Part shown: piece after piece, positions 774-28,364 of the stretch
How the letters are laid out: each line of letters opens with the position of its first letter
Numbering within the stretch: position 1 is the first letter of the stretch
Virus record (IMG/VR): IMGVR_UViG_3300028559_000150
Coordinates: 1 to 28,364 of that record
Length of the DNA: 28,364 bases
Strand: one strand, 5' to 3'
Origin: a virus
Translations under genes and position numbers: made by a program
Notes under the pieces: model-generated
Told to the model about the DNA's origin: nothing
Seen by the model: only the letters and a program-made list of their open reading frames with translations
Databases searched by the model: none

Positions 774-1260
774 TCAAATAAATGCCGTAGCTTCAGAGTA
801 TCTAAAAGGAACAGACACCGCTGACATTGCAAAGACTTTGGATATTCCACGCAACCGTGTTGTGGACCTGCTAAATGACTGGCGAAAGATGGCTGCAAAC
901 AATGAAGCCATACATGCAAGAGCCAGGGAAGCACTGGTTGGGGCAGACCAGCACTACTCATCTTTAATTAATAAGGCATATGAGGTAATTGATTCAGCAG
1001 ATAGTACCGCAAACCTTAACGCAAAGACGACGGCAATTAAACTAATTGCAGACATTGAAGCAAAGAGGCTTGACATGTTGCACCGTGCTGGCTTGCTGGA
1101 CAATAAAGAAATTGCTGAAGAGCTTGCAGAGATGGAAAGAAAACATGAAGTTCTTATTGATATTCTAAAAGAAGTTGCTTCAAAGTATCCAAACATTCGT
1201 ACAGAAATAATGAACAGGCTATCCCAGGTAACGTCTGGAGTTGGACTAATTGACACTTGA
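745..1260 (+). CDS. terS: Terminase small subunit-like protein
   Basis: 171 aa, GTG start preceded by GAGAGGGAAAC. The N-terminal third holds an HTH (YLKGTDTADIAKTLDIPRNR then VVDLLNDW), as expected for the DNA-recognition domain of small terminases. The middle and C-terminal parts are long charged helices (AKTTAIKLIADIEAKRLDML and EIAEELAEMERKHEVLIDIL) suited to oligomerisation. Its position directly before the large terminase, with an 11-base overlap, supports the call. Small subunits are poorly conserved, so the assignment rests on architecture and synteny rather than on a signature motif. Confidence 0.75.
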   Translation: MSKDLVKHLDQINAVASEYLKGTDTADIAKTLDIPRNRVVDLLNDWRKMAANNEAIHARAREALVGADQHYSSLINKAYEVIDSADSTANLNAKTTAIKLIADIEAKRLDMLHRAGLLDNKEIAEELAEMERKHEVLIDILKEVASKYPNIRTEIMNRLSQVTSGVGLIDT

Positions 1261-12777: not shown

Positions 12778-12788
12778 GGGGAGTCTAA

Positions 12789-15250: not shown

Positions 15251-15690
15251 TGAATTTCGTTATGCCAGATGGTGTTGAAGAATATCCTGATGACATTCTT
15301 GATATCCTCAATAGGATACCTGTTGAGTGGGGGCGCTGGATCTCTTGCGACAAGGGTTGGTATAAACTTCTTGTAGACACTAATCGCAAAATGAATATGA
15401 TGTGGCCCAACTACGAGATTCATCAGGTTAAAGAGAAGTTTGGTTCTCTGCGCTTCTATTGGGGTATTTCCAGTGAAGATAAAGACTGGGAGGCACTAGA
15501 CGAAAACATCTCCAAAACTATCTATGAAATTATGGGGGATATTGCCAATAGTGCAGAGAGTCGGTCCTCCCGCATCTGTGAAGATTGCGGTAAATTTGGT
15601 ACCACGACAGTTCTTAACTATTGGTATAGGACTCTGTGCCCCGCCTGTTCTGTTGAACAGGGATATACAGAAGAGCAAGAAGATATCTAG
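15250..15690 (+). CDS. Phage hypothetical protein with C-terminal zinc ribbon
   Basis: 146 aa. CDKGWYKLLVDTNRKM, YEIHQVKEKFGSLRFYWG and the ribbon CEDCGKFG ... YRTLCPAC form a pattern I recall from a widespread family in phages and bacteria (GWYxL, QVKEKFGxLRFY, then CExCG and WxRTLCxxC). The two CxxC pairs likely bind zinc. No activity is known for the family. Confidence 0.7.
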   Translation: MNFVMPDGVEEYPDDILDILNRIPVEWGRWISCDKGWYKLLVDTNRKMNMMWPNYEIHQVKEKFGSLRFYWGISSEDKDWEALDENISKTIYEIMGDIANSAESRSSRICEDCGKFGTTTVLNYWYRTLCPACSVEQGYTEEQEDI

Positions 15691-15837
15691 ATGTTCTTTC
15701 ATACGGTGTCCTGTACCTGTGGATGGTACTATGGACCAGCAAAAAAGAAGTTAGTTAAGGATATGCTATCCTTTCACAAAGAAATTCATAAGTTAGAGGG
15801 TTTGGCAAATGAAACAAAAGATAGCGATAGTAACTGA
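15691..15837 (+). CDS. Small C2H2-like zinc-finger protein
   Basis: 48 aa, ATG immediately after the previous stop. SCTCGWYYGPAKKKLVKDML then SFHKEIH gives C-x-C ... H-x3-H with a basic helix between, a plausible classical-like finger. The 3' end overlaps the GT4 gene by 29 bases, and the GAGGG used as that gene's ribosome site lies inside it. Missed by length-filtered ORF calling, but the finger pattern makes it credible. Confidence 0.6.
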   Translation: MFFHTVSCTCGWYYGPAKKKLVKDMLSFHKEIHKLEGLANETKDSDSN

Positions 15838-19208: not shown

Positions 19209-19457
19209 ATTGGTCTACTCGATGAAGGTCAAGCCACGCCTGCCCCTGCTGAGGGATACGCAGCACCGTACGACCTCCCTGAAATAACGGGTGAATCGGA
19301 GTTCCATCGGCATTTGGAGATAATCCTGGCAAATGAGTTCAGACGATTAAACCATCTTTACCCCGTTTTTTACAAATATAATAGAAAATGGGTTATTTGT
19401 CATGTCTGGATGTTTTATTATAAATATATTTTGGGTAAATATATCATTCAATCGTAA
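19209..19457 (+). CDS. Open frame with only a possible ATT start (82 codons)
   Basis: Open from TTA TTA TGT upstream through to a TAA at 19455-19457, with no in-frame ATG, GTG or TTG at its 5' end. From ATT at 19209 (AAAAGG about six bases upstream) it reads IGLLDEGQATPAPAEGYAAP then YDLPEITGESEFHRHLEIIL, ANEFRRLNHLYP and an aromatic hydrophobic end. The codon choice is GC-rich and protein-like in its first 50 residues, unlike the gap before it. Options are a rare AUU-initiated gene, a gene broken by a single-base shift after the ATG at 19190, or a structured RNA. The stop lies within the TCGTAA of a repeat box. Confidence 0.3.
   Translation: MGLLDEGQATPAPAEGYAAPYDLPEITGESEFHRHLEIILANEFRRLNHLYPVFYKYNRKWVICHVWMFYYKYILGKYIIQS
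19433..19457 (+). repeat. Phased box 1 (GGGTAA-N14-CGTAA), no GC dyad
   Basis: GGGTAA at 19433-19438 and CGTAA at 19453-19457, offset exactly 20. It lies just past the stop of the Ntn-hydrolase gene. First of ten boxes. This copy lacks the GC dyad. Confidence 0.65.
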
Positions 19458-19459
19458 TC

Positions 19460-19996
19460 TTATTTTGATACCAGGGTATTTAGTATATCTATTGGTCCCT
19501 TGCATGTTGGAGAGTATTCTATAGCAGCTTGTATGGATAATTTTATTCTATCTACCGGGGGTAAATGAGAAGAACTATATAAAGATCCCATTGCATACCC
19601 TGATCCTGATCCTATTGAAACCATATCATATTCAACACATTGAAAATCTGTTGTGTCTATTTCATAGACATGACCTTTTATACCCACAATAAATCCACCA
19701 TGATCTTCTTCTGATTCCGGTAATTTTATTTCCTTATCTTTAAAGAAGGTTCGTAATAATGGAATAAATACCTGGCCCATATGCTTATCTATATTAACAA
19801 TCTTTGCAGGCGGGAATTCAAAATTATATTTAATAGCTTGTCCCATTCCACTATTACCAGAATACCCAAAGACATATAAACCATGAGAAGATATCTTTGG
19901 CTGAGAAGAAGCTAATATATTATGAGAGTCACTATGTCCTCTTTCTCCCCCCATATAGACATTTCCCTTATCAACCAGGGCAGCTATGCAAGTCAT
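19460..19996 (-). CDS. HslV/proteasome-like Ntn hydrolase (N-terminal threonine peptidase)
   Basis: 178 aa from ATG 19996, which overlaps the stop of the upstream membrane peptide (ATGA); an ATG at 20056 has its GGAGG with no spacing and would bury the catalytic residue. Removing Met exposes Thr1: TCIAALVDKGNVYMGGERG. Counting from Thr1, Glu17 stands where proteasomes have Asp17, and Lys33 falls exactly on the catalytic lysine (QPKISSHGLYVFGYSG). VSIGSGSGYAMGSLYSS matches the conserved GSG-xYAxG motif before the C-terminal helices. At about 177 residues it is HslV-sized. No HslU or other unfoldase gene is visible, so it may be a stand-alone or host-ATPase-using peptidase, or act on a phage protein. 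Confidence 0.82.
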   Translation of the reverse strand: MTCIAALVDKGNVYMGGERGHSDSHNILASSQPKISSHGLYVFGYSGNSGMGQAIKYNFEFPPAKIVNIDKHMGQVFIPLLRTFFKDKEIKLPESEEDHGGFIVGIKGHVYEIDTTDFQCVEYDMVSIGSGSGYAMGSLYSSSHLPPVDRIKLSIQAAIEYSPTCKGPIDILNTLVSK

Positions 19997-20097
19997 GAAA
20001 AAATCCAGGAAGCAAGCAAAATGCAAGCGGTACAAATAGAAATACTTAAAATACATCCTCCAACAAGGGTAGTAATAAGATCTTCTCCTTTATTCAT
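19993..20097 (-). CDS. 34-residue membrane peptide upstream of the Ntn hydrolase
   Basis: ATG 20097 with a strong ribosome site AGGAGGG. Encodes MNKGEDLITTLVGGCILSIS then ICTACILLASWIFS: a charged N-terminus and one transmembrane helix rich in small residues and cysteine. The TGA overlaps the hydrolase ATG, so the two products are made together, suggesting a membrane partner or an anchor for it. The longer 103-codon frame upstream runs through the repeat region and is not believed. Confidence 0.6.
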   Translation of the reverse strand: MNKGEDLITTLVGGCILSISICTACILLASWIFS

Positions 20098-20107
20098 ATT
20101 CCCTCCT

Positions 20108-20136
20108 ATTATATCAACAATATGGATTTCGGGTAA
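20108..20136 (-). promoter_or_regulatory. Minus-strand promoter whose -35 is a repeat half-site
   Basis: On the minus strand TTACCC (20136-20131), 17 bases, TATAAT (20113-20108), with TG ahead of it (TGATATAAT). The -35 position is occupied by the GGGTAA half-site of the phased box, so a box-binding protein would compete with or help polymerase. The -10 lies very close to the ribosome site. Confidence 0.5.
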
Positions 20137-20155
20137 AAATATCTTTCCTTCGTAA
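20131..20155 (+). repeat. Phased box 2 (GGGTAA-N14-CGTAA), no GC dyad
   Basis: GGGTAA at 20131 and CGTAA at 20151. It is immediately followed by box 3, making this the only tandem pair, placed in front of the Ntn-hydrolase operon. Confidence 0.7.
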
Positions 20156-20164
20156 TCATATTTC

Positions 20165-20212
20165 CGGTAAAAAATATATTGGTTCGTAAAATGTTTTATG
20201 TGGGAGCGCTCC
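20165..20212 (+). repeat. Phased box 3 with dyad (CGGTAA-N14-CGTAA, GGAGCGCTCC)
   Basis: CGGTAA at 20165, CGTAA at 20185, dyad GGAGCGCTCC at 20203-20212 centred 18 bases after CGTAA. The dyad differs from the usual GGGGCGCCCC yet keeps perfect symmetry, so compensating changes on both sides have preserved the palindrome. Confidence 0.7.
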
Positions 20213-20242
20213 GCCCGGCCTGCGGAGCTATTCCATGATTGG

Positions 20243-20280
20243 CCCCCGCCCCCTAGCCTCATACAGCCAGGGGACGGGGG
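20243..20280 (-). terminator. Strong GC hairpin after the 20288 gene
   Basis: Arms 20243-20254 and 20269-20280 pair over 12 positions (11 matches plus one G-U) around a 14-base loop, just beyond the stop of the minus-strand gene at 20288. There is no T-run after it, so it is not a textbook intrinsic terminator; it may block read-through or protect the 3' end. Confidence 0.5.
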
Positions 20281-20287
20281 AGACAAA

Positions 20288-20545
20288 TCAGTGAATAACA
20301 CCATCTACAAAATAATCTGAACTATATGGATCAAATGCTAATTGCTCTGCTGGAATGTTTACTCCATATTTTTCTATGTTGTGTTGTATTCCATCTGCAA
20401 AGTTCTTTGCATTTATTACTACCGTGATCGGCTGCTGAACAATGAACAGAGGTACTGCGTACTTCCATTCACTAGGCAGAACACGGTTGTCTGAGAATAA
20501 CTTTACAAACTTGTCTGACAGTTGTTGCGTATTGACCCACGCCAT
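20288..20545 (-). CDS. Hypothetical protein (85 aa)
   Basis: ATG 20545 with GGAGG seven bases upstream. Helical start (VNTQQLSDKFVKLFSDNRVL), strands PLFIVQQPITVVINAKNFAD and an acidic end. No family recognised. Second gene behind the promoter at 20792-20820. Confidence 0.6.
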   Translation of the reverse strand: MAWVNTQQLSDKFVKLFSDNRVLPSEWKYAVPLFIVQQPITVVINAKNFADGIQHNIEKYGVNIPAEQLAFDPYSSDYFVDGVIH

Positions 20546-20605
20546 AGGCTACCTCCATTGTCAATTGTACCGGCAGAGTGGACGGTTGTCCACCCTGAGG
20601 AACAA

Positions 20606-20761
20606 TTAACGAGAGGCTACCTTTGGTGCCTTTCGCAGAGAGGTGAGATTAACAGAGTCAACGAACTTGCCGTCCTCACTACGAATGACCACACGCTCTT
20701 GCGTGCCATACCGGGTGTCCCACTGCTCTAGATAACTAAACTTTGCCATTTTCTTTGCCAT
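20606..20761 (-). CDS. Hypothetical protein (51 aa)
   Basis: ATG 20761 with AAGGAG seven bases upstream; the second Met four codons later is an alternative. Reads MAKKMAKFSYLEQWDTRYGT then QERVVIRSEDGKFVDSVNLT, a small beta protein with a basic tail. A strong promoter lies 30 bases upstream. Confidence 0.6.
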   Translation of the reverse strand: MAKKMAKFSYLEQWDTRYGTQERVVIRSEDGKFVDSVNLTSLRKAPKVASR

Positions 20762-20791
20762 TTTATTTCTCCTTATTGTTTGGGTGTTACG

Positions 20792-20820
20792 ATTATACGG
20801 GATAAATCAACTATTGTCAA
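20792..20820 (-). promoter_or_regulatory. Consensus sigma-A promoter TTGACA-N17-TATAAT
   Basis: Minus strand: TTGACA (20820-20815), 17 bases, TATAAT (20797-20792), a perfect match to the vegetative consensus. It drives the 51-aa and 85-aa genes. No phased box accompanies it, unlike most minus-strand promoters in this arm. Confidence 0.85.
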
Positions 20821-20923
20821 CACCTTGTAACTCTTTGCCTTCAGCCGCAATCTTTGCAGGACAATCATCATATGCGACTTTTGGAGCCTTACCAAGATGC
20901 CCGGTAAACAAAGCACCAACCAT
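20807..20923 (-). CDS. Possible 38-aa protein overlapping the gene upstream
   Basis: Open frame MVGALFTGHLGKAPKVAYDD then CPAKIAAEGKELQGVDNS, beginning inside the last codons of the 20889 gene and ending in the promoter of the next unit. The composition looks protein-like, but only a weak GAAG/GAG ribosome site precedes it. An ATG two codons earlier (20929) is possible. Confidence 0.35.
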   Translation of the reverse strand: MVGALFTGHLGKAPKVAYDDCPAKIAAEGKELQGVDNS

Positions 20924-21374
20924 ACTCATCTTCAGGAATAGCATTTAACACATTGTCAATAATGTCAATAGTTGATTGCATATCCTTTAGATACCATTCA
21001 TCTATTTCACCACTGCCAAAGAAAAAACCATCTTGGGGTGGTAGAATATCTCCTGCCATAGCGGGCTGCTTAATAACGCTTGCACACAATTCCCGCAACT
21101 CTACTAACTTTTCACGGGGTACATAAATATCTTGACATTCATCTACGCCATTTGCCAACTCATTAACAAACCAACCATGAATAGCATTAGCCTTGCGCCA
21201 GTATCCAACGGTAAGGGAAAGGTTTGCCCCACCAAACAACTCAACGCTATCAGTAAGACCCTTGGGAGCCAATGCCACCAATGCGGTATACTCTGGGTTT
21301 GGAGTAGGCACTCCATTACTGTAGGTGTCCTGACCAACATACTTGCGAGCCTCAAGGTACTGATCTAATCCCAT
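20889..21374 (-). CDS. Phage hypothetical protein, MGLDQYLEARKY family
   Basis: 161 aa, ATG 21374 with AAGGGTGG upstream. MGLDQYLEARKYV, VGYWRKANAIHGWFVNELAN, DIYVPREKLVELRELC and DGFFFGSGEIDEWYLKD are landmarks of a widespread phage family (MGLDMYLxARKY, YWRKANxIHxWFV, FFFGSTxYDxWY). Function unproven. Driven by the promoter at 21406-21434. Confidence 0.75.
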   Translation of the reverse strand: MGLDQYLEARKYVGQDTYSNGVPTPNPEYTALVALAPKGLTDSVELFGGANLSLTVGYWRKANAIHGWFVNELANGVDECQDIYVPREKLVELRELCASVIKQPAMAGDILPPQDGFFFGSGEIDEWYLKDMQSTIDIIDNVLNAIPEDEYGWCFVYRASW

Positions 21375-21405
21375 TTTATTTCCACCCTTTCGTTGTGAGA
21401 GTCAC

Positions 21406-21434
21406 AATCTATCAGAATCCGGTAAAAATGTCAA
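21406..21434 (-). promoter_or_regulatory. Sigma-A promoter TTGACA-N17-TAGATT within a phased box
   Basis: Minus strand: TTGACA (21434-21429), 17 bases, TAGATT (21411-21406). The -35 lies inside the N14 spacer of box 4, so protein bound to the box would cover the -35. Confidence 0.75.
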
Positions 21435-21467
21435 ATGTTCGTAAAGGAGTGGCGGGCGGGGCGCCCC
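21420..21467 (+). repeat. Phased box 4 with GC dyad
   Basis: CGGTAA at 21420, CGTAA at 21440, dyad GGGGCGCCCC at 21458-21467 centred 18 bases on. Overlaps the -35 of the minus-strand promoter for the 20889 gene. Confidence 0.75.
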
Positions 21468-21471
21468 CTAA

Positions 21472-21514
21472 TAGTATGCAGATTCTTGGCTTGTAGCATA
21501 GTGTATGCATACTA
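21472..21514. repeat. Perfect 9-bp inverted repeat
   Basis: TAGTATGCA at 21472-21480 and TGCATACTA at 21506-21514, 25 bases apart, between the dyad of box 4 and the tRNA 3' end. It could be a 3' hairpin of the tRNA-containing transcript or a binding site; a further small GGGC...GCCC hairpin lies next to it. Confidence 0.5.
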
Positions 21515-21547
21515 ATGGGCATCGGTGCCGCCCTACCTGGGGCCTAG

Positions 21548-21621
21548 TGGGGAGAGTCGGACTCGAACCGACGACGACCGAATTATGAGTTCGGGGCTCT
21601 AACCAGCTGAGCTACCTCCCC
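21548..21621 (-). tRNA. tRNA with CAT anticodon (Met, or Ile2 if modified)
   Basis: 74 nt cloverleaf on the minus strand. Acceptor GGGGAGG pairs with TCTCCCC (one G-U), D-arm GCTC...GAGC, anticodon stem CCGAA/TTCGG with loop CTCATAA, T-arm GTCGG-TTCGAGT-CCGAC, discriminator A. CCA is not encoded. The loop fits elongator Met; tRNA-Ile2 cannot be excluded without identity-element analysis. It is the last member of the long minus-strand operon that starts at 23298. Confidence 0.93.
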
Positions 21622-21635
21622 AAACCAATTAATAT

Positions 21636-21701
21636 TTAATCATTAGATCCTCCCCAATACACTGCGGAATCCAACATTACGTTGATACGCTCAGGCAGCA
21701 T
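21636..21701 (-). CDS. 21-codon ORF, possible decayed duplicate
   Basis: ATG 21701 follows GAGGAGGACTA and overlaps the previous stop (TAATG). Encodes MLPERINVMLDSAVYWGGSND. Its 3' half is a 31-bp duplicate of the 3' end of the 21781 gene read in another frame, so it may be a remnant left by duplication rather than a functional peptide. Confidence 0.35.
   Translation of the reverse strand: MLPERINVMLDSAVYWGGSND
21644..21674. repeat. 31-bp direct repeat, copy A
   Basis: Identical over 31 bases to 21785-21815. On the minus strand the unit ends with TTGGGGAGGATCTA, a strong ribosome site placed before an ATG, so the duplication copied a gene end together with its translation signal. In this copy the following ATG opens only a four-codon frame. 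Confidence 0.85.
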
Positions 21702-21781
21702 TAGTCCTCCTCAAAAAGCACGGTAGTAAAATTACCATCACTAGTAAACTTACCAGTCTCTAGATCAAGCCAGATAGCCAT
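21701..21781 (-). CDS. 26-aa peptide gene
   Basis: ATG 21781 is part of a TAATG overlap with the gene before it and has GGGGAGG eight bases upstream. Encodes MAIWLDLETGKFTSDGNFTT then VLFEED, a plausible beta hairpin. Very short but well signalled. Function unknown. Confidence 0.5.
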   Translation of the reverse strand: MAIWLDLETGKFTSDGNFTTVLFEED

Positions 21782-22068
21782 TAGTAGATCCTCCCCAATA
21801 CACTGCGGAATCCAAGATCATAGACATACATCTCAACCTGATTATGAGCAGACTCACCATAGAATAACTTGGAAGTCTTTACATTAGGTTTACCCATATT
21901 AGTAATTACCCTGTAAAAATCAGGGAATGGAAATCCTAGCTGAACAATTACGCTGCCACCATACAGGCCACGCCAATCATTTTCCATATCCTCTGTATAG
22001 ATGGTGTCCCACTCCTTGACACACTTAACGCTTGGCCGCTTAGATGGGTAGAGCGATCTGGTATTCAT
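21781..22068 (-). CDS. Hypothetical protein (95 aa)
   Basis: ATG 22068 with GAGGGAATAG upstream, overlapping the preceding gene by 29 bases. Basic N-terminus (NTRSLYPSKRPSVKCVKEWD), aromatic middle (GFPFPDFYRVITNMG) and end YVYDLGFRSVLGRIY. No family recognised. Its last 31 bases are duplicated downstream. Confidence 0.6.
   Translation of the reverse strand: MNTRSLYPSKRPSVKCVKEWDTIYTEDMENDWRGLYGGSVIVQLGFPFPDFYRVITNMGKPNVKTSKLFYGESAHNQVEMYVYDLGFRSVLGRIY
21785..21815. repeat. 31-bp direct repeat, copy B
   Basis: Second copy of the unit at 21644-21674, here forming the 3' end of the 95-aa gene and carrying the ribosome site of the 26-aa gene. The copies start 141 bases apart. Confidence 0.85.
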
Positions 22069-22231
22069 CTATTCCCTCTCTGTTGTGGATTACAAAGTCT
22101 ACACCCAACTCCCTTAGAAAGTCAAGGTACAAATTAAATTCATTCTGATTCTGTAGATCACGAACAATATCACTATTTACATACACTTCCCACAATGATT
22201 CATTAATCTGATATATGTGTCTGAAGTCCAT
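22040..22231 (-). CDS. Hypothetical protein (63 aa)
   Basis: ATG 22231 overlaps the preceding stop (TAATG). MDFRHIYQINESLWEVYVNS, a helix DLQNQNEFNLYLDFLREL and strands DFVIHNREG form a small alpha-beta protein. Operon member; function unknown. Confidence 0.6.
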   Translation of the reverse strand: MDFRHIYQINESLWEVYVNSDIVRDLQNQNEFNLYLDFLRELGVDFVIHNREGIDEYQIALPI

Positions 22232-22410
22232 TACGCCTCCTCTGCCTCGTAGGTGAGGATCTGAATAATACCAGTTTCCACCATGTAGCGCAAAATGTCA
22301 ATCTCGTTGGGGGCAGGCTCAAGGTTAGGCCATTCCATATCAAAGTCATATTCAGCAGAATCATTAGTTCCCTGAATCTCAAGAATGCCCATGCAGCGAT
22401 AGTTCTTCAT
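22231..22410 (-). CDS. Acidic hypothetical protein (59 aa)
   Basis: ATG 22410 is preferred over a GTG one codon earlier because GGGGG lies four bases upstream. MKNYRCMGILEIQGTNDSAE, then DMEWPNLEPAPNEIDILRY and an acidic end EAEEA. The start overlaps the preceding stop (TGATG). Confidence 0.6.
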   Translation of the reverse strand: MKNYRCMGILEIQGTNDSAEYDFDMEWPNLEPAPNEIDILRYMVETGIIQILTYEAEEA

Positions 22411-22583
22411 CACACCCCCTGAAAGTCATAGTAGAACCTTTGGCCAGCAACATCGGTAAAGTCAAGGGTGCCACGCACACCATCTGACTTACGCTCCACC
22501 ACACACAGATTCATGGCGAATCCAAGAACCTGATAGTTCTCAAGCATCTGATCTTTAGTTAGGCCGTCAGTCTCAAAGTTCAT
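22410..22583 (-). CDS. Hypothetical protein (57 aa)
   Basis: ATG 22583, AAGGGTG upstream. MNFETDGLTKDQMLENYQVL, then GFAMNLCVVERKSDGVRGTL and DFTDVAGQRFYYDF: a helix followed by a three-strand sheet. Ends in a TGATG overlap with the next gene. The clean overlap at both operon borders makes it a confident small gene despite its length. Confidence 0.6.
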   Translation of the reverse strand: MNFETDGLTKDQMLENYQVLGFAMNLCVVERKSDGVRGTLDFTDVAGQRFYYDFQGV

Positions 22584-22595
22584 AGCCACACCCTT

Positions 22596-22838
22596 CTATT
22601 TATATTGAGATGCACAACGTGAACAAAATTTATTTACCCTTGGATTTTTGCTCAGTCTAACAATAGTTCTTAGGGAAGTCAAGTAGTCCCAGTGCCATCC
22701 ACTATCTTTATCTATATAAGTACCACAAACGGTCCTTGACCACACGTCCTCAATATGTCTTGTTCCGGATGGTGACGCCACCAATGTAATTTCGTTGCCG
22801 TCCATAAAGATATCTAACGGCAGTGTGGCGTTAGCCAT
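22596..22838 (-). CDS. Hypothetical protein (80 aa) with C-terminal cysteine pair
   Basis: ATG 22838 with AGGA eight bases upstream, overlapping the stop of the mini zinc-ribbon gene (TGATG). MANATLPLDIFMDGNEITLV then ASPSGTRHIEDVWSRTVCGT and a final FCSRCASQYK. The CxxC at the end with the earlier Cys/His could bind zinc. No family recognised. Confidence 0.6.
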   Translation of the reverse strand: MANATLPLDIFMDGNEITLVASPSGTRHIEDVWSRTVCGTYIDKDSGWHWDYLTSLRTIVRLSKNPRVNKFCSRCASQYK

Positions 22839-22915
22839 CACTCACATCCTGAGCACTCTGGCGGTACTAGCCCGCATGTTTCACACTCCACCATCTCAAA
22901 CCACTCATACTCCAT
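22838..22915 (-). CDS. 25-aa mini zinc-ribbon peptide
   Basis: ATG 22915 overlaps the preceding stop (TGATG), and its own TGA overlaps the next ATG. Encodes MEYEWFEMVECETCGLVPPE then CSGCE: CxxC, eight residues, CxxC. This is about the shortest sequence that could hold a zinc ribbon. Start and stop coupling on both sides argues for real translation. Confidence 0.6.
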   Translation of the reverse strand: MEYEWFEMVECETCGLVPPECSGCE

Positions 22916-23298
22916 CACTCGTCCTCCACTTCGATAGAAACATCATCCAGTGTTAGGTCAACATCAACTTCACCATTGTGTTCACAAGAGAAGTCAAGGA
23001 CATCTTCCCAATCTACATCTTCTCCGTCAGAGTCTATGTCAATTTCGGCGGTACCTATAAAGATAGGCTCACAACGTATATTAACAGTCTTAGTCAATTT
23101 CATACCAAGCATACGAGCAATTTCCTTTACAGCATCTTTATTAAAGTCTCTCATGTCAATCATGTCAAGAATTTGTCCCTTAGCGTTCTCAATCATTAAA
23201 GACAATGCATCTTTTTGATCTAAAACTATCTTGAGGTCATCATATAGGCCATCACGCTCTGATCTAAGGGTTTCAGTGTAGGAATTAATGTAAGTCAT
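22915..23298 (-). CDS. Coiled-coil and acidic-tail protein
   Basis: 127 aa, ATG 23298, AAGGAG six bases upstream. N-terminal coiled coil (TETLRSERDGLYDDLKIVLD, QKDALSLMIENAKGQILDMI) then strands and a very acidic second half (IDIDSDGEDVDWEDVLDF, EVDVDLTLDDVSIEVEDE). The C-terminal half may mimic nucleic acid charge, which is inference. It leads the nine-gene plus tRNA operon driven by the promoter at 23325-23353. Confidence 0.65.
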   Translation of the reverse strand: MTYINSYTETLRSERDGLYDDLKIVLDQKDALSLMIENAKGQILDMIDMRDFNKDAVKEIARMLGMKLTKTVNIRCEPIFIGTAEIDIDSDGEDVDWEDVLDFSCEHNGEVDVDLTLDDVSIEVEDE

Positions 23299-23324
23299 AA
23301 TTCTCCTTAGTTGTTGTTATCCTT

Positions 23325-23353
23325 ACCCTATATCATATGGTTCTTAATGTCAA
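23325..23353 (-). promoter_or_regulatory. Sigma-A promoter TTGACA-N17-TAGGGT
   Basis: Minus strand: TTGACA (23353-23348), 17 bases, TAGGGT (23330-23325). The phased box ends 11 bases upstream of the -35. The same unusual -10 (TAGGGT) recurs in the plus-strand promoter at 25028-25056. Confidence 0.75.
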
Positions 23354-23363
23354 GCCTAAAAAG

Positions 23364-23412
23364 TGGGGAAAAATAAGGTCAATCGTAACAAGGGGTATAG
23401 GGGGGCGCCCCC
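23364..23412 (+). repeat. Phased box 5 with GC dyad (GGGG type)
   Basis: TGGGGA at 23364, CGTAA at 23384, dyad GGGGGCGCCCCC at 23401-23412 centred 18 bases on. Lies between the DUF932 gene's 3' end and the promoter of the long operon. Confidence 0.75.
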
Positions 23413-23433
23413 GGCTGGCCCCAGGCATGACGA

Positions 23434-23461
23434 TGCCCCCCGCAGTTTTCTACGAGGGGCA
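23434..23461 (-). terminator. Hairpin after the DUF932 gene
   Basis: TGCCCC at 23434-23439 pairs with GGGGCA at 23456-23461 around a 16-base loop, 15 bases past the stop of the DUF932 gene. No T-run, so its terminator role is uncertain. Confidence 0.4.
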
Positions 23462-23475
23462 CCGCCGCTAGTGTG

Positions 23476-24474
23476 CTATGCGGCTACCAACTCCCGCACC
23501 GCTGAAAGGATGCGAGACTTTTCCGTGTTGGTCGCAACGTCAAAGCCTGACGCAGCCGCAGACATTGACTCGCTGTTACCGGCACGCCCACTGCGATACC
23601 AGTCAAGGCGCTCAGTCAATGCGTTGAGGGCTCCCCAAGCGGTGCCGCTAATCATGTAGTTAGTCGGGCCGGTATAAATTGAGTTAATGGTGTCAATTTT
23701 ATTTTCCCACTTTGTCATGCTGCCTTTACCATCTTTAATTGGCTTAGGATACAAGGATGTGATGAGATCATTAAATTGCTTTGCGTCAATTTCCTTTTGG
23801 ATAAACTCTGCGGCCATCTTGTCAAACTCATCAAGGTAGGCATTAGCAAGGCCTAAGGCTTCCCTAGCGGCCTGAACCTTACCATCTACAGATTGAGTGT
23901 GGCGAATCTTAAACGATTGCTTTGGACCCTTGCCACGATTACCAAGAGCCAAGTTGAGAGTGTTCTGGCAGACAACACGCACCGGGGTAACCGATGCCTG
24001 AATTGCCACGGACCCGTCATGCGATGTGTGAACTAGTAGGTAATTGTTGATTTTGTCACCCACACCGGTAGAGTCTAAGACTGTCTCACGCTCAAGGGCA
24101 AGTGAGCCGAATACGACCGTACCGCTCTTGATTGAGCCAGCAGTTTCCCAGCGGCCACCATCTAGCAAGTTATCGCCAAAGGTAAATAGTTCCTCATTCT
24201 GAACCGTCTTGTATCGTTGACCAACTACGCCAAGCACGTCCGATTCACCGTCGAATGGATTGGTGCGAGTGACGGCAAACCATGACTTATGTGAGCGTGC
24301 GGGCAGGTCGATATCCTCAAGGTGGACATTCCAGTTATCAAGGTGAGCGAGCGAAAGCATTTCAGAGGTAGACACCTCATTGTCGAACACGGTGCCAAGG
24401 CTGTGCCATGCCGGTTCCCGTAGGGATGCAAAGGCAACCTCGCCGTTCTGACCAATCTCTAGTGCGTGAGCCAT
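23476..24474 (-). CDS. DUF932 (phage/plasmid-like TIGR03299) protein
   Basis: 332 aa. ATG 24474 is chosen because AAAGGAAA precedes it and family members begin MAHALE; the 20-residue upstream extension is rejected. MAHALEIGQNGEVAFASLRE then PAWHSLGTVFDNEVSTSEML, WFAVTRTNPF, VGQRYKTVQNEELFTFGDNL and VRVVCQNTLNLAL follow the DUF932 pattern. Members are frequent on phages and plasmids; a role in DNA metabolism is often proposed, but no activity is established. GC content and codon use are richer than in the left part of the window. Confidence 0.85.
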   Translation of the reverse strand: MAHALEIGQNGEVAFASLREPAWHSLGTVFDNEVSTSEMLSLAHLDNWNVHLEDIDLPARSHKSWFAVTRTNPFDGESDVLGVVGQRYKTVQNEELFTFGDNLLDGGRWETAGSIKSGTVVFGSLALERETVLDSTGVGDKINNYLLVHTSHDGSVAIQASVTPVRVVCQNTLNLALGNRGKGPKQSFKIRHTQSVDGKVQAAREALGLANAYLDEFDKMAAEFIQKEIDAKQFNDLITSLYPKPIKDGKGSMTKWENKIDTINSIYTGPTNYMISGTAWGALNALTERLDWYRSGRAGNSESMSAAASGFDVATNTEKSRILSAVRELVAA

Positions 24475-24505
24475 GATATTTCCTTTCGTTGTAGTTGATA
24501 ATCCA

Positions 24506-24534
24506 AAGATACAGGACAAAAATATATTTGTCAA
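24506..24534 (-). promoter_or_regulatory. Sigma-A promoter TTGACA-N17-TATCTT
   Basis: Minus strand: TTGACA (24534-24529), 17 bases, TATCTT (24511-24506), followed by the DUF932 ribosome site. The phased box lies 18 bases upstream of the -35. Confidence 0.8.
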
Positions 24535-24551
24535 GTTTTAATAGACATTTC

Positions 24552-24599
24552 CGGTAACTATTTTATGTGTTCGTAAGAGGGGGCCGGGCGGGGCGCCCC
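24552..24599 (+). repeat. Phased box 6 with GC dyad
   Basis: CGGTAA at 24552, CGTAA at 24572, dyad GGGGCGCCCC at 24590-24599 centred 18 bases on. Lies between the divergent DUF932 unit and the plus-strand gene at 24692. Confidence 0.75.
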
Positions 24600-24691
24600 C
24601 CCATATTGTTATCATCCTGTTACCATTTTGATGACCTATTTATGGGTATTTCATGATAAGATTCTTTTAATCAACTAATGAGGAGATAGAT

Positions 24692-24886
24692 ATGAAAACT
24701 TATAAGGAATATGTTATTACTTTACCCCTGAGTTTTTTAATGAATTCAGATCACCCAGTCTGCCAGCAGTTCGAGGATATTCCCGATGAGAACAAGGAGC
24801 AGGCGCTGCTTGACGTGTTTGACGGGCTGCTCAAACTGGCAAACGAGAACGGCTCTTTTTGCATCATGGACAGGGTAAGGACATGA
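24692..24886 (+). CDS. Hypothetical protein (64 aa)
   Basis: ATG with GAGGAG upstream. MKTYKEYVITLPLSFLMNSD, PVCQQFEDIPDENKEQALLD and a helix VFDGLLKLANENG. A possible extended -10 (TGATAAGAT, near 24653) precedes it. The stop overlaps the next ATG. Codon usage changes part way, AT-rich then GC-rich. Confidence 0.6.
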   Translation: MKTYKEYVITLPLSFLMNSDHPVCQQFEDIPDENKEQALLDVFDGLLKLANENGSFCIMDRVRT

Positions 24887-25026
24887 TAATTAAATACTAT
24901 GACCTATCCAACCCAGAGGAGCAGACCATAGACTCAGATGAGCATATGGTATTTGGTGCCTTGGGAGAGTTGGCATTTCTTCGGGGTATACTGGCAACAA
25001 AATGCATAATAACAGATATTAGATAA
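24883..25026 (+). CDS. Hypothetical protein (47 aa)
   Basis: ATG overlaps the preceding TGA (ATGA). Encodes MIIKYYDLSNPEEQTIDSDE then HMVFGALGELAFLRGILATK and CIITDIR, a small alpha-beta protein. Stop at 25024-25026, just before a promoter. Translation is supported only by coupling and composition. Confidence 0.55.
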   Translation: MIIKYYDLSNPEEQTIDSDEHMVFGALGELAFLRGILATKCIITDIR

Positions 25027-25027
25027 T

Positions 25028-25056
25028 TTGACATTGTCGGGTTTTTATGATAGGGT
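25028..25056 (+). promoter_or_regulatory. Sigma-A promoter TTGACA-N17-TAGGGT
   Basis: TTGACA at 25028-25033, 17 bases, TAGGGT at 25051-25056, then a leader containing AAAGGAG before the ATG at 25084. Confidence 0.8.
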
Positions 25057-25083
25057 GGGCCTATCAACAACAAAGGAGAAAAA

Positions 25084-25224
25084 ATGAATGTTCAGGTCGG
25101 AGACCAGTACACCACGTCAGTTTCGGGAGTCACGGGTACAGTTAAAGAAATTCATGACAAGCCTTATGGCCATGTTTATCTCCTAGATGTAAATGGGGCA
25201 GACCGTTGGACAACTGCAAAGTAA
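25084..25224 (+). CDS. Small SH3-like phage protein (46 aa)
   Basis: ATG with AAAGGAG six bases upstream and a strong promoter. MNVQVGDQYTTSVSGVTGTV, KEIHDKPYGHVYLLDVNGAD and RWTTAK has the strand-turn spacing of small barrel proteins common in actinophages. Monocistronic, so likely abundant early. Function unknown. Confidence 0.65.
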   Translation: MNVQVGDQYTTSVSGVTGTVKEIHDKPYGHVYLLDVNGADRWTTAK

Positions 25225-25304
25225 TTTGATACAATAATAAAACAAATAAATAATGTGCTTGGGGATATGCGACCCGTCAAAAACATAACAATTCTGATAT
25301 GAAA

Positions 25305-25334
25305 TTGACACCGACTCGCTTCCCCAAATATCCT
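25305..25334 (+). promoter_or_regulatory. Possible tRNA promoter TTGACA-N18-TATCCT
   Basis: TTGACA at 25305-25310 and TATCCT at 25329-25334, spacer 18. It would start transcription about 20 bases before the tRNA-like sequence at 25362 and the tRNA-Asp at 25435. The upstream stretch 25256-25325 contains TTGGGG/CCCCAA and GCGA/TCGC arms that could fold. Confidence 0.5.
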
Positions 25335-25361
25335 GAGCATGATATTTAAAACTGCTCACAT

Positions 25362-25429
25362 GCCTTGGGTACTGGATACAGACGAGCCTCCAAAACTTGT
25401 CTTCCTAGGTTCGACTCCTAGACAAGGTG
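25362..25429 (+). tRNA. Degenerate tRNA-Trp-like sequence (CCA anticodon), reduced D-arm
   Basis: Acceptor GCCTTGG against ACAAGGT (one G-U, last pair mismatched), anticodon stem CGAGC/ACTTG with one mismatch and loop CTCCAAA (anticodon CCA, Trp), T-arm CTAGG-TTCGACT-CCTAG perfect, variable loop of five. The D region is only 14 bases and can make just a 3-bp stem (CTG/CAG) with a GATA loop, without the usual GG. It is 68 nt long. It may be a decayed tRNA, a minimal functional one, or a tRNA mimic. It lies five bases before tRNA-Asp. Confidence 0.5.
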
Positions 25430-25434
25430 CTTAG

Positions 25435-25507
25435 GGTTCTGTGGAGTAGCGGTCATCTCGCTTCCTTGTCACGGAAGAAATCGCGGGTTCGAATCCCGTC
25501 AGAACCG
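25435..25507 (+). tRNA. tRNA-Asp (GTC anticodon)
   Basis: 73 nt. Acceptor GGTTCTG/CAGAACC, D-arm GAGTAGCGGTCATCTC, anticodon stem CTTCC/GGAAG with loop TTGTCAC, T-arm GCGGG-TTCGAAT-CCCGT with one G-U pair, discriminator G. The next bases are CA, so part of CCA is present by sequence. All stems pair well. Confidence 0.92.
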
Positions 25508-25514
25508 CAAAACC

Positions 25515-25563
25515 TGGGGGTTATTAAAGGTCTTCGTAACAAAGAGCTGCAGGGGGCGCCCCC
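25515..25563 (+). repeat. Phased box 7 with GC dyad (GGGG type)
   Basis: TGGGGG at 25515, CGTAA at 25535, dyad GGGGGCGCCCCC at 25552-25563 centred 18 bases on. Lies eight bases after tRNA-Asp, between convergent units. The remaining 130 bases to the next gene are AT-rich and show nothing else recognisable. Confidence 0.75.
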
Positions 25564-25694
25564 ATATTTCCATATCATACTATCATTGATGATACTTTTC
25601 TATATGTGTATGAATATCATCCAAGGTAGCATATTTTACTGTCTTGAACTAATAATTAACACATCCATATCTCAGGTTCGATACCCTCCAAATA

Positions 25695-25943
25695 TTACAC
25701 TCCCCAATTTATTAGAAACAATTCTATATCTTGATTAGGAACGTATTCATATACCATTGTATCCCCTACTAATGTTTCTACATGATCTTGAAACTCAGGA
25801 ATTATTTCTGTTACCCATTTTTTATTATTAAAGAAAGCTAACTCTTTAGAATTCTCCCCCGAATATGTTCCGGGTCCAGACACAACACTTACACAATCCG
25901 CTAACGGATGACTTATTGAGTATTTATTTCTATCCACATTCAT
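25695..25943 (-). CDS. Hypothetical protein (82 aa)
   Basis: ATG 25943 overlaps the stop of the upstream gene (ATGA). MNVDRNKYSISHPLADCVSV, VSGPGTYSGENSKELAFFNN and an acidic C-terminus (VYEYVPNQDIELFLINWGV). AT-rich, unlike its GC-richer partner upstream. No family recognised; the coupling suggests a partner of the DUF7178-like protein. Confidence 0.65.
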   Translation of the reverse strand: MNVDRNKYSISHPLADCVSVVSGPGTYSGENSKELAFFNNKKWVTEIIPEFQDHVETLVGDTMVYEYVPNQDIELFLINWGV

Positions 25944-26491
25944 GATGCACTTCCTCTCTTAACTATCCAGATTAACGCTTGAGCAGTGCGCGGTGTAATT
26001 CCAAACTCACTTGCAATAATTCTCACGGCTTGCGACACCTCACGGTATTGTGACTTATTAGGTGAGTCGGTAGGCATTAGTGCCGCCCGCATCATCCATA
26101 CGTCAATAACTACCGCGTCAGTATCTCCAGCAATGGCGCGTGCGAATGCATTAGTCTTTAGGCCATTGAGTGCGTCAAAGCCCTTGAGCATTGCATTATC
26201 TGCCATTAGTAGATTATTCTGCAACCCCTTAGGCCGCTTGCCCATTGAGAACTCAATAGACTTTGATACGTTAGTGGACCAACGCTCACGGGGAGAGAAA
26301 GCCGCAACAATGCTTGCACCAACTTCTAGCGTAGTGTCAAGGTTACGAGCAACTTCCTCGGCAACTTCCTCGGCATCACGGTACCAAACACTAGCGGCCT
26401 CAACTTGGCCTAGCGTGGCTTTCATTACGAGATCACGGAATAGATCTACATAGGTGGACGATATGGCGGGGGTCTGGGTGAGTGTGTTCAT
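25940..26491 (-). CDS. DUF7178-like protein, possibly HhH-GPD glycosylase-related
   Basis: 183 aa, ATG 26491. ASVWYRDAEEVAEEVARNLD, VAAFSPRERWSTNVSKSIEF, GLKTNAFARAIAGDTDAVVI, DVWMMRAAL and a C-terminal helix pair GITPRTAQALIWIVKRG. The order (WY..A, SPRxxWxxN, KTxNFAxAIxG, DxWMxRAA) matches a family frequent in actinophages that I know as DUF7178. The K-T-N-F-A helix followed by a buried Asp recalls HhH-GPD base-excision glycosylases, but this is a weak structural analogy. Confidence 0.6.
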   Translation of the reverse strand: MNTLTQTPAISSTYVDLFRDLVMKATLGQVEAASVWYRDAEEVAEEVARNLDTTLEVGASIVAAFSPRERWSTNVSKSIEFSMGKRPKGLQNNLLMADNAMLKGFDALNGLKTNAFARAIAGDTDAVVIDVWMMRAALMPTDSPNKSQYREVSQAVRIIASEFGITPRTAQALIWIVKRGSAS

Positions 26492-26497
26492 GTCATT

Positions 26498-26526
26498 ATC
26501 CTAGTCTAGTTTGATTGATATTGCAA
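26498..26526 (-). promoter_or_regulatory. Sigma-A-like promoter TTGCAA-N17-TAGGAT
   Basis: Minus strand: TTGCAA (26526-26521), 17 bases, TAGGAT (26503-26498), six bases before the ATG of the DUF7178-like gene. The message would be leaderless, although an AGGATAAT sequence could act as a ribosome site on a longer transcript. Confidence 0.55.
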
Positions 26527-26541
26527 GCCGGGGAATAGAAA

Positions 26542-26616
26542 TTATCTATCCAATACAAAAGCCAATAACAAAGCACCAAATACCATCATGCCAATGAATA
26601 ACAATAGCTCACCCAT
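26542..26616 (-). CDS. Single-pass membrane peptide (24 aa)
   Basis: ATG 26616 overlaps the 3' end of the upstream basic-protein gene; AAAGGAT lies eight bases before it. An ATG two codons earlier (26622) is possible. Encodes MGELLLFIGMMVFGALLLAF then VLDR, one transmembrane helix with glycine spacing. Too short for ordinary gene finding. Function unknown. Confidence 0.5.
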   Translation of the reverse strand: MGELLLFIGMMVFGALLLAFVLDR

Positions 26617-26749
26617 TATCATATCCTTTCGATGAGTGCTTGACCTTGCGGGTATATTTAGACTTATTTTTATGCGGGGTCGCCGCATTAGACTTGCGTA
26701 AGTCCATAACTTTGCGCTGGTGAGAATTAGATCGACGGGATGAATTCAT
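26609..26749 (-). CDS. Small highly basic protein (46 aa)
   Basis: ATG 26749 lies six bases after the -10, so it is translated leaderless; a longer frame from 26821 would run through the promoter and box. MNSSRRSNSHQRKVMDLRKS then NAATPHKNKSKYTRKVKHSS: about one third Lys, Arg or His, Ser-rich and disordered-looking. It probably binds nucleic acid or an acidic host protein. Confidence 0.6.
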   Translation of the reverse strand: MNSSRRSNSHQRKVMDLRKSNAATPHKNKSKYTRKVKHSSKGYDNG

Positions 26750-26755
26750 AGGAAA

Positions 26756-26784
26756 ATAATATATGCAAACAACAACAAAGTCAA
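26756..26784 (-). promoter_or_regulatory. Sigma-A promoter TTGACT-N17-TATTAT, leaderless
   Basis: Minus strand: TTGACT (26784-26779), 17 bases, TATTAT (26761-26756), then six bases and the ATG. The phased box begins ten bases upstream of the -35. Confidence 0.75.
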
Positions 26785-26793
26785 GACAAAATC

Positions 26794-26841
26794 CTGGGGT
26801 TTTATAACATCTTCGTAACAATGAGCAGGGCGGGGCGCCCC
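26794..26841 (+). repeat. Phased box 8 with GC dyad (GGGG type)
   Basis: CTGGGG at 26794, CGTAA at 26814, dyad GGGGCGCCCC at 26832-26841 centred 18 bases on. The box-to-promoter layout matches boxes 5 and 6. Confidence 0.75.
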
Positions 26842-27030
26842 TCCGGTCGCGTGCGACAAAACGGGATCTAACGGATCCGTCGGCGACATTGTGTCATTTA
26901 ACGGTCGCTGTGTGCGACATTACGCTGATTAAGAAGCACTGGGACTGACATATCGTCGTCTAAGAATTTCAGTTCAGCGCTCCACTGAAACGGACCCACC
27001 GGTCGGGTTGTCCCCTTTTTTCTTTTATTA
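26842..27030 (+). ncRNA. Probable structured non-coding RNA or leader
   Basis: No ORF fits this GC-rich stretch. It holds GTCGC-GT-GCGAC and GTCGC-TGTGT-GCGAC stem-loops, a CGGATCCG palindrome, three GCGACA repeats and a perfect 7-bp hairpin TTTCAGT (26967-26973)/ACTGAAA (26984-26990), followed at once by a hairpin with a T-run. The order of hairpins plus a terminator is what a small RNA or an attenuated leader would show. The strand is inferred from the terminator. No promoter is obvious, and I match it to no known family. Confidence 0.45.
26992..27023 (+). terminator. Intrinsic terminator
   Basis: GGAC at 26992-26995 pairs with GTCC at 27010-27013, with inner CC/GG pairs and an ACCGGTC loop, followed by a T-rich tract from 27016. 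It is the clearest hairpin-plus-T-run in the right arm and points to a plus-strand transcript ending here. Confidence 0.6.
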
Positions 27031-27044
27031 TGTGTGTTTTATTC

Positions 27045-27073
27045 TTGTGATTGTCAGACCCCTGTGCTAGGCT
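27045..27073 (+). promoter_or_regulatory. Sigma-A-like promoter TTGTGA-N17-TAGGCT
   Basis: TTGTGA at 27045-27050, 17 bases, TAGGCT at 27068-27073, then a leader with GAAAGGA before ATG 27101. It drives the five-gene plus-strand operon to 27959. Confidence 0.6.
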
Positions 27074-27100
27074 TCAGCCATAACCTAACGAAAGGAAAAA

Positions 27101-27274
27101 ATGAACGACTACGGCGTACACTTCGTTTATGACAATATGACCCTATCCATTCAGGTCTCCGGTATATCTAAGGCTGCGGCTTTGGAGGAGGCCAAGATTG
27201 AGGCCCGCAACGAATTAAACATTGACGAGTGGGTATTAAATCAGGCTGGCCTTTTAATTGAGGAGAATAACTAA
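27101..27274 (+). CDS. Hypothetical protein (57 aa)
   Basis: ATG with AAAGGA upstream. MNDYGVHFVYDNMTLSIQVS then GISKAAALEEAKIEARNELN and IDEWVLNQAGLLIEENN: two strands and a long helix, a layout typical of small phage regulators. The stop overlaps the next ATG (TAATG). First gene of the operon. Confidence 0.65.
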   Translation: MNDYGVHFVYDNMTLSIQVSGISKAAALEEAKIEARNELNIDEWVLNQAGLLIEENN

Positions 27275-27480
27275 TGAAAGATCTATTTATTTATCATCCC
27301 TGCACGGGAACGGTCATCTCTCTGTCTGATGCGGTATACCTTTGTGATCCAGCAAATATTGACGCAGATACCCTTGAGGAAATAGAATATGGGGTGTCAG
27401 ATATATCAGACAGATATCACAAGGGTCTTAGATTAGATAATTACAACATGACCAATTTATTTTTTGGAGGTGCAAAGTGA
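27274..27480 (+). CDS. Hypothetical protein (68 aa)
   Basis: ATG within a TAATG overlap, GAGGAG upstream. MKDLFIYHPCTGTVISLSDA then VYLCDPANIDADTLEEIEYG: the opening strand plus SLSDAVYL and DP segments recall a small phage family with a conserved DAV(Y/V)L core, but no function is known. Confidence 0.65.
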   Translation: MKDLFIYHPCTGTVISLSDAVYLCDPANIDADTLEEIEYGVSDISDRYHKGLRLDNYNMTNLFFGGAK

Positions 27481-27620
27481 CAAACTTTGTTTGTGATGCG
27501 TGCGGATTAGAAACCGATCCCTCTCCAATGTGGGAGGAGTGTTGTGTACCTTGCAACATCACTTATTTAACTACTGACCTAGAAAGATTAGTCGCCTATC
27601 AAAGGGGAGTGAAATGGTAA
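27477..27620 (+). CDS. Small zinc-binding protein (47 aa)
   Basis: GTG 27477 overlaps the preceding TGA and follows GGAGGTGCAAA, a strong ribosome site. MTNFVCDACGLETDPSPMWE then ECCVPCNITYLTTDLERLVA: CxxC and CCxxC motifs 14 residues apart form a zinc ribbon, followed by a helix. Overlaps the next gene by seven bases. Confidence 0.6.
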   Translation: MTNFVCDACGLETDPSPMWEECCVPCNITYLTTDLERLVAYQRGVKW

Positions 27621-27832
27621 TTATCTCAACAGAAGATCATATGGTGGCGCACTTGCCAAACGATATTGGCGTAGTGTGGTTCAAGGGTTCACATACTGCA
27701 AATGTCTATGACGGCTGGGGTAGTGTAAACAATGTAGATTGCTTTTCATTCTCATTCGAGAAAAATGAAACCTCAATGCTTGATTTCACTACCGCGTTAG
27801 AAAGTTGGGCAAATTATGCTGAGCAATACTAA
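27614..27832 (+). CDS. Hypothetical protein (72 aa)
   Basis: ATG with AAAGGGGAG upstream. MVIISTEDHMVAHLPNDIGV, VWFKGSHTANVYDGWGSVNN and a helix MLDFTTALESWANYAEQY. Aromatic beta protein with a C-terminal helix. No family recognised. The 3' end overlaps the next small ORF. Confidence 0.65.
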   Translation: MVIISTEDHMVAHLPNDIGVVWFKGSHTANVYDGWGSVNNVDCFSFSFEKNETSMLDFTTALESWANYAEQY

Positions 27833-27959
27833 ATTATCCCCACGGGATTTTGAAATCTCATTCCAAATAAAAATGGCAATGCATATGTTAAGTTGTCAAA
27901 ATACATTAGCAGCAAAAGAAAATTTGACTGCCGCTTTAAATTTTATTCATAGAGAATAA
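27816..27959 (+). CDS. Small helical protein (47 aa)
   Basis: ATG inside the end of the previous gene (17-base overlap). MLSNTKLSPRDFEISFQIKM then AMHMLSCQNTLAAKENLTAA and LNFIHRE, a Met-rich helical protein. No clear ribosome site beyond GGGCAAATT, so coupling is assumed. It ends three bases before box 9. Confidence 0.5.
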   Translation: MLSNTKLSPRDFEISFQIKMAMHMLSCQNTLAAKENLTAALNFIHRE

Positions 27960-27961
27960 AC

Positions 27962-28010
27962 TGGGGATTTTATTAATCCATCGTAACAAGTAAGAAGGGC
28001 GGGGCGCCCC
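27962..28010 (+). repeat. Phased box 9 with GC dyad (GGGG type)
   Basis: TGGGGA at 27962, CGTAA at 27982, dyad GGGGCGCCCC at 28001-28010 centred 19 bases on. Followed by a CCCCC-TTTC-GGGGG hairpin at the 3' end of the minus-strand gene at 28027. Confidence 0.75.
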
Positions 28011-28026
28011 CTTTCGGGGGAGACGC

Positions 28027-28209
28027 CTAAGCGTCCCACCCGAAGAGAAATTCCTCCATAGCCCTGTCCTCTTCCAGGTTATCGCTCCAGTCTTCGTGCT
28101 CGCAAGAGTCGAACATGTCGTCATCTTCGGGGCCGTAGTCAAGTTCGGGGTCAAAAAGGATTTCGTTAGACCAAACTATTTCCTGTGCGATGGAATCAAT
28201 AACCCACAT
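28027..28209 (-). CDS. Strongly acidic small protein (60 aa)
   Basis: ATG 28209 with GAGGAG five bases upstream. MWVIDSIAQEIVWSNEILFD, PELDYGPEDDDMFDSCEHED and WSDNLEEDRAMEEFLFGWDA: roughly one third Asp or Glu. Such proteins can mimic DNA and inhibit nucleases, RNA polymerase or restriction enzymes; that is only a composition-based suggestion. Monocistronic between boxes 9 and 10. Confidence 0.65.
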   Translation of the reverse strand: MWVIDSIAQEIVWSNEILFDPELDYGPEDDDMFDSCEHEDWSDNLEEDRAMEEFLFGWDA

Positions 28210-28236
28210 GTTTTCTCCTCGTTGGTAGGTAGCGTA

Positions 28237-28265
28237 AGCGTAGCATGGGGGGCTGACACTAGCAA
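28237..28265 (-). promoter_or_regulatory. Weak promoter TTGCTA-N17-TACGCT
   Basis: Minus strand: TTGCTA (28265-28260), 17 bases, TACGCT (28242-28237). The match is poor, but the location fits the box-then-promoter layout of the other minus-strand units. Confidence 0.4.
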
Positions 28266-28275
28266 CCCCAAAGCT

Positions 28276-28323
28276 CGGGGGTTTTATAACGTCTTCGTAA
28301 CGAATGGTTTTGAGCGGGCGCCC
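28276..28323 (+). repeat. Phased box 10 with GC dyad (GGGG type)
   Basis: CGGGGG at 28276, CGTAA at 28296, dyad GGGCGCCC at 28316-28323 centred 19 bases on. Near the window edge; hairpin-forming CCTT-TGCG-AAGG sequence follows. Confidence 0.75.
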
Positions 28324-28364
28324 CGCCCCGAAGGGCTAGCGAGCCTTTGCGAAGGCGCGAGCCT

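Follow-up and report, generated by a model that had tools for sequence, protein, structure and literature searches.

What does a short DNA element do that recurs, always in one orientation, between the small genes of a phage arm? The question is raised by a linear virus fragment of 28.4 kb (IMG/VR record IMGVR_UViG_3300028559_000150, positions 1 to 28,364; hereafter the window), whose right arm carries ten such boxes. A sequence-only reading of this DNA had described ten tripartite, same-orientation boxes at almost every unit boundary and took them for an operator or boundary system of a phage regulator, with stoperators as one analogy; all ten were recovered on the + strand, and nearly all transcription units of the arm are indeed separated by them. 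The window's proteins show it to be distantly related to the BE-cluster Streptomyces phages (Stanwilliamsviridae). We propose, with about even confidence, that a transcription regulator binds DNA at the box; it is most likely a family-specific activator and would serve the early units of a terminal-repeat-like region. The element is real, widespread, polarity-locked and regulatory, and an activator mechanism is plausible; on our best reading it also marks the boundaries of exchangeable cassettes.

The boxes, with CGTAA starting at 19453, 20151, 20185, 21440, 23384, 24572, 25535, 26814, 27982 and 28296, stand far above chance. A motif model whose training set left out both the window and its close kin gives all ten 12.9–23.4 bits and no match above 10 bits on the − strand; a Markov-1 null expects 0.2 sites above 12 bits per strand per window. 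The left 19 kb, thought to be free of boxes, is nearly so: one weaker match, of 15.3–15.8 bits, lies at 17556 within a small predicted open reading frame (ORF). The phasing proposed within each box proved rigid to ±1 bp, although the G-run begins 18–19 bp before CGTAA rather than exactly 20.

Relatives were collected by pattern scans (G001–G005) and by protein searches with DUF932 and DUF7178, which gave 94 further loci, partly on the same contigs. The core is present in more than 80 related loci from uncultured viruses of bacteria and is bipartite, AAAWTTYNGGGRAAWTTT-N7-YTTCGTAAT, with GGGAA and CGTAAT 19 bp apart; the model refined on relatives reads AAAWTTYNGGGRAAWTTT-N7-YTTCGTAAT-N4-TTT, and the whole element spans about 40 bp. 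The third part thus belongs to the window's lineage only. Polarity is nearly absolute: across 1.55 Mb from related phage loci, 571 core sites above 14 bits lie opposite the DUF932 strand and 3 on the other. Boxes keep one strand in G001–G005, which share the same order among themselves where they overlap, and the boxes point one way along the genome, also beside + units. The sites are confined to the terminal-repeat-like region and are mostly intergenic (296 of 355 nonredundant sites, or 83%, against 24% of bases), 231 of the 296 falling between two leftward genes, at a median distance of 92 bp from the leftward gene start; 59 matches lie in predicted genes, 22 of them well supported. Copies are therefore not strewn at random inside genes, and the core spacing is kept in relatives, so that the idea of a protein-binding regulatory or boundary element survived both checks; spacing, intergenic position, strand polarity and the promoter phasing described below all support it.

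A strict form of the motif matched five contigs among 85k prokaryote genomes, none of them Actinobacteria-titled and one clearly phage-like, and therefore is no host-wide site; a host-derived origin was rejected on these grounds. A contig of a Chitinophagaceae metagenome-assembled genome (L160, CANGYR010000020.1) bears six boxes on one strand, which suggests a misbinned phage of the box-bearing family. Early pattern matches (L008-L017, L020, L022-L026) were dismissed as chance GC-rich matches. A second repeated motif, TGTCCGATTTG(TCC), occurs near repeat edges and in some intergenic regions (L060-L146; Karimac L029), with 18 and 46 copies on the two strands.

Strong leftward sigma70-type promoters (TTGACA-17-TATAAT) are predicted to the left of the box, and their −35 elements prefer offsets of −6/−7 (within the box) and of roughly −28, −39 and −51, the intervals between these being sparsely occupied. 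Since orthologous promoters share their spacing by descent, each gene family was allowed to contribute a given −35 position only once; the classes persist (−5..−9, −25..−32, −36..−43 and −46..−54, with family-level counts of 49, 34, 37 and 19, the gap between the first two classes holding 13), with a period of about 11 bp (jitter test, p=2e-4), or 12.25 bp when the first class is left out (p=4e-4). Gene families switch class, the DUF932 promoter lying at about −29, −39, −52 or −6 depending on the phage. Class II and class I activator positions have been established from CRP-type activators. With CGTAA taken as the functional centre, the boxes would lie about −42, −63, −74 and −86 from the start site, near these positions, and the helical-turn steps upstream of sigma70-type promoters are those expected of such activators. 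In BE Streptomyces phages, not all of which are independent, a different GC dyad lies about 36, 45, 54 and 63–68 bp from the −10, again in steps of about 10 bp. Promoters at 25027-25055 and 27048-27076 of the window and in many relatives show an extended −35 form, TTGACA-n-TGTCAGACC or TTGACATTGTCGGG, possibly a second operator or strong-promoter signature.

These observations, together with the bipartite core, its single polarity and its traces in Streptomyces BE phages, suggest the following scheme. A regulator of the phage family would bind the core and activate rather than repress, the box either overlapping the −35 or standing two or more helical turns further upstream, as for class II and class I activators. 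Each unit would form a promoter-gene cassette whose upstream end is the box, and the GC dyad beside the box would be the joint where one cassette was exchanged; it may also be part of a terminator or insulator.

Several points weigh against an activator site. For boxes 7 and 9 of the window no leftward promoter was found, several convergent sites lack one as well, and many promoterless sites are clustered at the repeat's left edge, the junction between the last + gene and the first leftward one. The BE phage Karimac has clear boxes at its repeat edges only. The best period is 11–12 bp and not 10.5 bp, helical phasing fits looping or bridging as well, boxes that contain the −35 would be suited to a repressor, and the leftward promoters themselves are sequence predictions. 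Pfam revealed no clear DNA-binding protein, and hence no candidate binder, among the window-arm proteins scanned, which leaves a regulator gene inside the arm unsupported. The two promoterless window boxes and the clusters at repeat edges make a second role at genome ends possible.

The window is placed by its large terminase gene (1250..3031, +), whose product is 53% identical to those of BE-cluster phages; megablast against known phages gave no matches. Its DUF932 gene (23476..24474, −) is 57% identical to Streptomyces phage genes near the left genome end, inside the terminal repeat of which this gene is a landmark. Karimac has DUF932 inside its direct terminal repeat, a region of almost exclusively leftward genes, and published terminal repeats of BE1 phages measure about 11 kb (PMC5764925). 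By analogy, the window would run from the terminase through a right unique arm into a right terminal repeat starting near 19.4 kb, and the box-bearing arm would correspond to the ~11-kb direct repeat of BE-like phages rather than to a generic phage arm. The right unique arm (6761-16822) holds metabolic genes, among them IMP dehydrogenase (13954-14991), glycosyltransferases, a FAD-dependent oxidoreductase-like protein and a xylose-isomerase-like TIM barrel. The first leftward gene of the repeat-like region (19460-20056) resembles a phage HslV-family peptidase group (phrog_1040), and an Rfam scan of the window yielded two tRNAs and nothing else.

Within this region, the core of box 1 (19431..19460; 17.7–20.4 bits), of the GGGTAA type and without a dyad, marks the left edge, and all ten cores lie on the + strand. 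Boxes 2 (20129..20158; 20.8–23.8 bits) and 3 (20163..20192; 17.1–19.6 bits) form a tandem, the latter with the dyad GGAGCGCTCC at 20203..20212. Box 4 (21418..21447; 17.9–21.2 bits; dyad GGGGCGCCCC, 21458..21467) contains the −35, at offset −6, of a predicted sigma70-like − strand promoter, TTGACA-17-TAGATT (21406..21434), of the 20889-21374 gene. Near box 5, of the GGGG type (23362..23391; 15.2–17.0 bits; dyad 23402..23411), TTGACA-17-TAGGGT (23325..23353, −) places its −35 at −31, while box 6, of the GGTAA type (24550..24579; 12.9–16.7 bits; dyad 24590..24599), is accompanied by the putative DUF932 promoter TTGACA-17-TATCTT (24506..24534, −), with its −35 at −38. Box 7 (25513..25542; 22.9–24.4 bits) stands at the 3′ end of a + unit with tRNA-Asp, and blastn homology to G001 stops at the end of its dyad (25553..25562). 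Box 8 (26792..26821; 17.0–18.1 bits; dyad 26832..26841) has TTGACT-17-TATTAT nearby (26756..26784, −; −35 at −30), box 9 (27960..27989; 23.4–24.8 bits; dyad 28001..28010) lies between convergent units, and box 10 (28274..28303; 21.8–22.0 bits; dyad GCGGGCGCCCCGC, 28315..28324) is next to a weak promoter, TTGCTA-17-TACGCT (28237..28265, −; −35 at −31).

The dyad had been claimed for eight boxes, and eight of the ten have it, but its centre lies 23–24 bp after the C of CGTAA (24–26 in relatives) instead of 18–19 bp. It is typical of the window's closer relatives, its position and sequence not being conserved family-wide. Strong inverted repeats occur at 51 of 294 sites against 11 after shuffling; a hairpin or terminator was rejected as the main function, the dyad being a nearly loop-free palindrome with inconsistent T-tracts and no family-wide conservation. 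Box and dyad might have been selected as a recombination joint, a stretch of short homology or a site-specific exchange site comparable to promoter early stem-loop (PeSL) elements or integron attachment sites. The units between boxes are in fact reordered between the window and G001/G003: DUF932 is followed in the window by a tRNA-Asp unit (+), a DUF7178 unit (−) and a small-gene unit (+), and in G001 by the DUF7178, tRNA-Asp and small-gene units. The window gene at 20889-21374 (−) corresponds to G001 38332-38835 (+), the box strand being unchanged, and each box resembles its counterpart after the same left-hand unit in the relative. Moreover, a 314-bp cassette present in G003 and not in G001 was gained or lost exactly at the dyads, so that the single G001 box combines the left part of one G003 box with the right flank of the next, with a crossover inside GCGCCCC. 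Selection for exchange is nevertheless very unlikely to explain the box: a clean box-to-box event occurs in one near-identical pair only, another insertion (G003 694-1368) is not of this kind, the dyad lacks family-wide conservation, no linked recombinase was found, and ordinary homologous recombination suffices for the G001/G003 difference. Tandem, partly similar segments in G003 (20175-21413) and G005 (11907-13359), matching a + gene near 46.8 kb of G001, are perhaps a duplicating structural gene.

The main rival to a regulator site is a polar element of the genome ends, used in replication, packaging or terminal-repeat processing, whose spread to promoters would be secondary; it is kept in this place because boxes 7 and 9, the edge clusters, Karimac and the satellite MulchRoom do not fit an activator. 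Its orientation is genome-fixed even beside + genes, and in Karimac, Tomas, MindFlayer and MulchMansion the boxes lie near the repeat ends, all on the + strand. In a scan of satellites and helpers that used MW291015 as a negative control, MulchRoom (L156) has a match of 12.7 bits within its own terminal repeat (positions 1474 and 14652), followed by AATCGGGCAT, which resembles the helpers' AATCGGACAT beside their repeat-edge box. We still consider a primary genome-end role unlikely, since most sites precede ordinary gene promoters in discrete spacing classes and nothing in the satellite MiniFlayer scores above 8 bits. The idea of iterons or of a single origin was rejected, the sites being dispersed over 9 kb at about one per unit. 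A repressor site or polar roadblock, which would shut off early units or halt transcription between them, accounts for many asymmetric, one-orientation, mostly intergenic sites like those of phage L5 (PMC6550527, PMC9283540) and for the class covering the −35; however, the BE relatives are presumed virulent and no immunity repressor was found in them (PMC10690885), the box mostly lies upstream of the promoter and not downstream, and phased upstream sites would not block initiation. This stoperator-like explanation, preferred by the sequence-only reading, is weakened accordingly by the virulent relatives and by the genome-fixed, promoter-phased sites, and appears improbable. Scarcely credible is a rightward promoter for a phage-encoded extracytoplasmic function (ECF)-type sigma factor, with GGGAA as −35 and CGTAAT as −10: the resemblance to ECF promoters is there, as is the lack of a conserved flank to the right, but only 20 of the 296 intergenic sites face a + gene, so that transcription would mostly run antisense, the spacer falls about 3 bp short, and the phasing with leftward promoters is left unexplained; it was rejected, the genes lying on the wrong side of the box. 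A wider view, which we offer tentatively and hold to be rather doubtful, is that a single polarity-locked genome-end element unites the phased activator site, the cassette joint and an ancestral repeat-edge signal shared with a satellite phage, in a large family of actinobacteriophage relatives.

How BE-type phages and their environmental relatives control their early genes appears not to be described in the literature found, searches for BE promoters having returned nothing relevant. BE terminal repeats contain mostly genes of unknown function, for which a motif in nearly every related locus offers a way in: with it, promoters and units can be predicted in regions of small ORFs, the phage lineage can be recognised in metagenomes, and misbinned contigs stand out. 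A protein binding GGGAA-N14-CGTAAT is predicted to control the first-expressed genes, and the loci form a natural data set for promoter-to-site spacing that evolved in helical-turn steps.

Among known systems, the stoperators of cluster A mycobacteriophages are likewise 20–30 short, asymmetric sites, largely of one orientation and mostly between genes; they are 13–14 bp long, bound by the immunity repressor, distributed genome-wide in temperate phages and oriented with transcription (PMC6550527, PMC9283540), whereas the box spans about 40 bp, occurs in phages whose BE relatives lack repressors (PMC10690885), keeps its genome-fixed orientation beside + units, is restricted to the repeat-like region and is phased upstream of promoters. 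Start-associated sequences (SAS) of cluster K, 13-bp GGGATAGGAGCCC at translation starts, and extended SAS (ESAS) with 17-bp inverted repeats (PMC3203893) are also repeated intergenic elements, mostly in one orientation and kept across relatives; the box differs in sequence and lies a median of ~92 bp upstream of the start. It thus fails the defining features of both, though working somewhat like each. Integron attC sites have RYYYAAC/GTTRRRY core sites and act with an integrase; an attC array was rejected because the core GTTACGA does not fit GTTRRRY, and no integrase was seen among the window proteins scanned. PeSL cassettes of T4-type phages (PMC4503421) join an early promoter to a stem-loop terminator and mediate modular gene shuffling. 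The box may be comparable as a boundary element with a promoter and a GC-rich repeat between small early genes: units around it are reordered, and in one case a cassette was gained or lost precisely at the dyad. Its promoter, however, lies at a variable, phased distance, most relatives have no defined stem-loop and the phages are unrelated. The terminal-repeat intergenic regions of the BE cluster (Karimac, Tomas, MindFlayer and MulchMansion) share with the window the DUF932 landmark, leftward early units and a promoter, GC dyad and hairpin between units; inside their repeat, AAGATCTTTTGACCGGGGCGG or GACCGGGCCGGTC replaces the GGGAA-CGTAA box, while near the repeat edges the same bipartite box stands in the same orientation.

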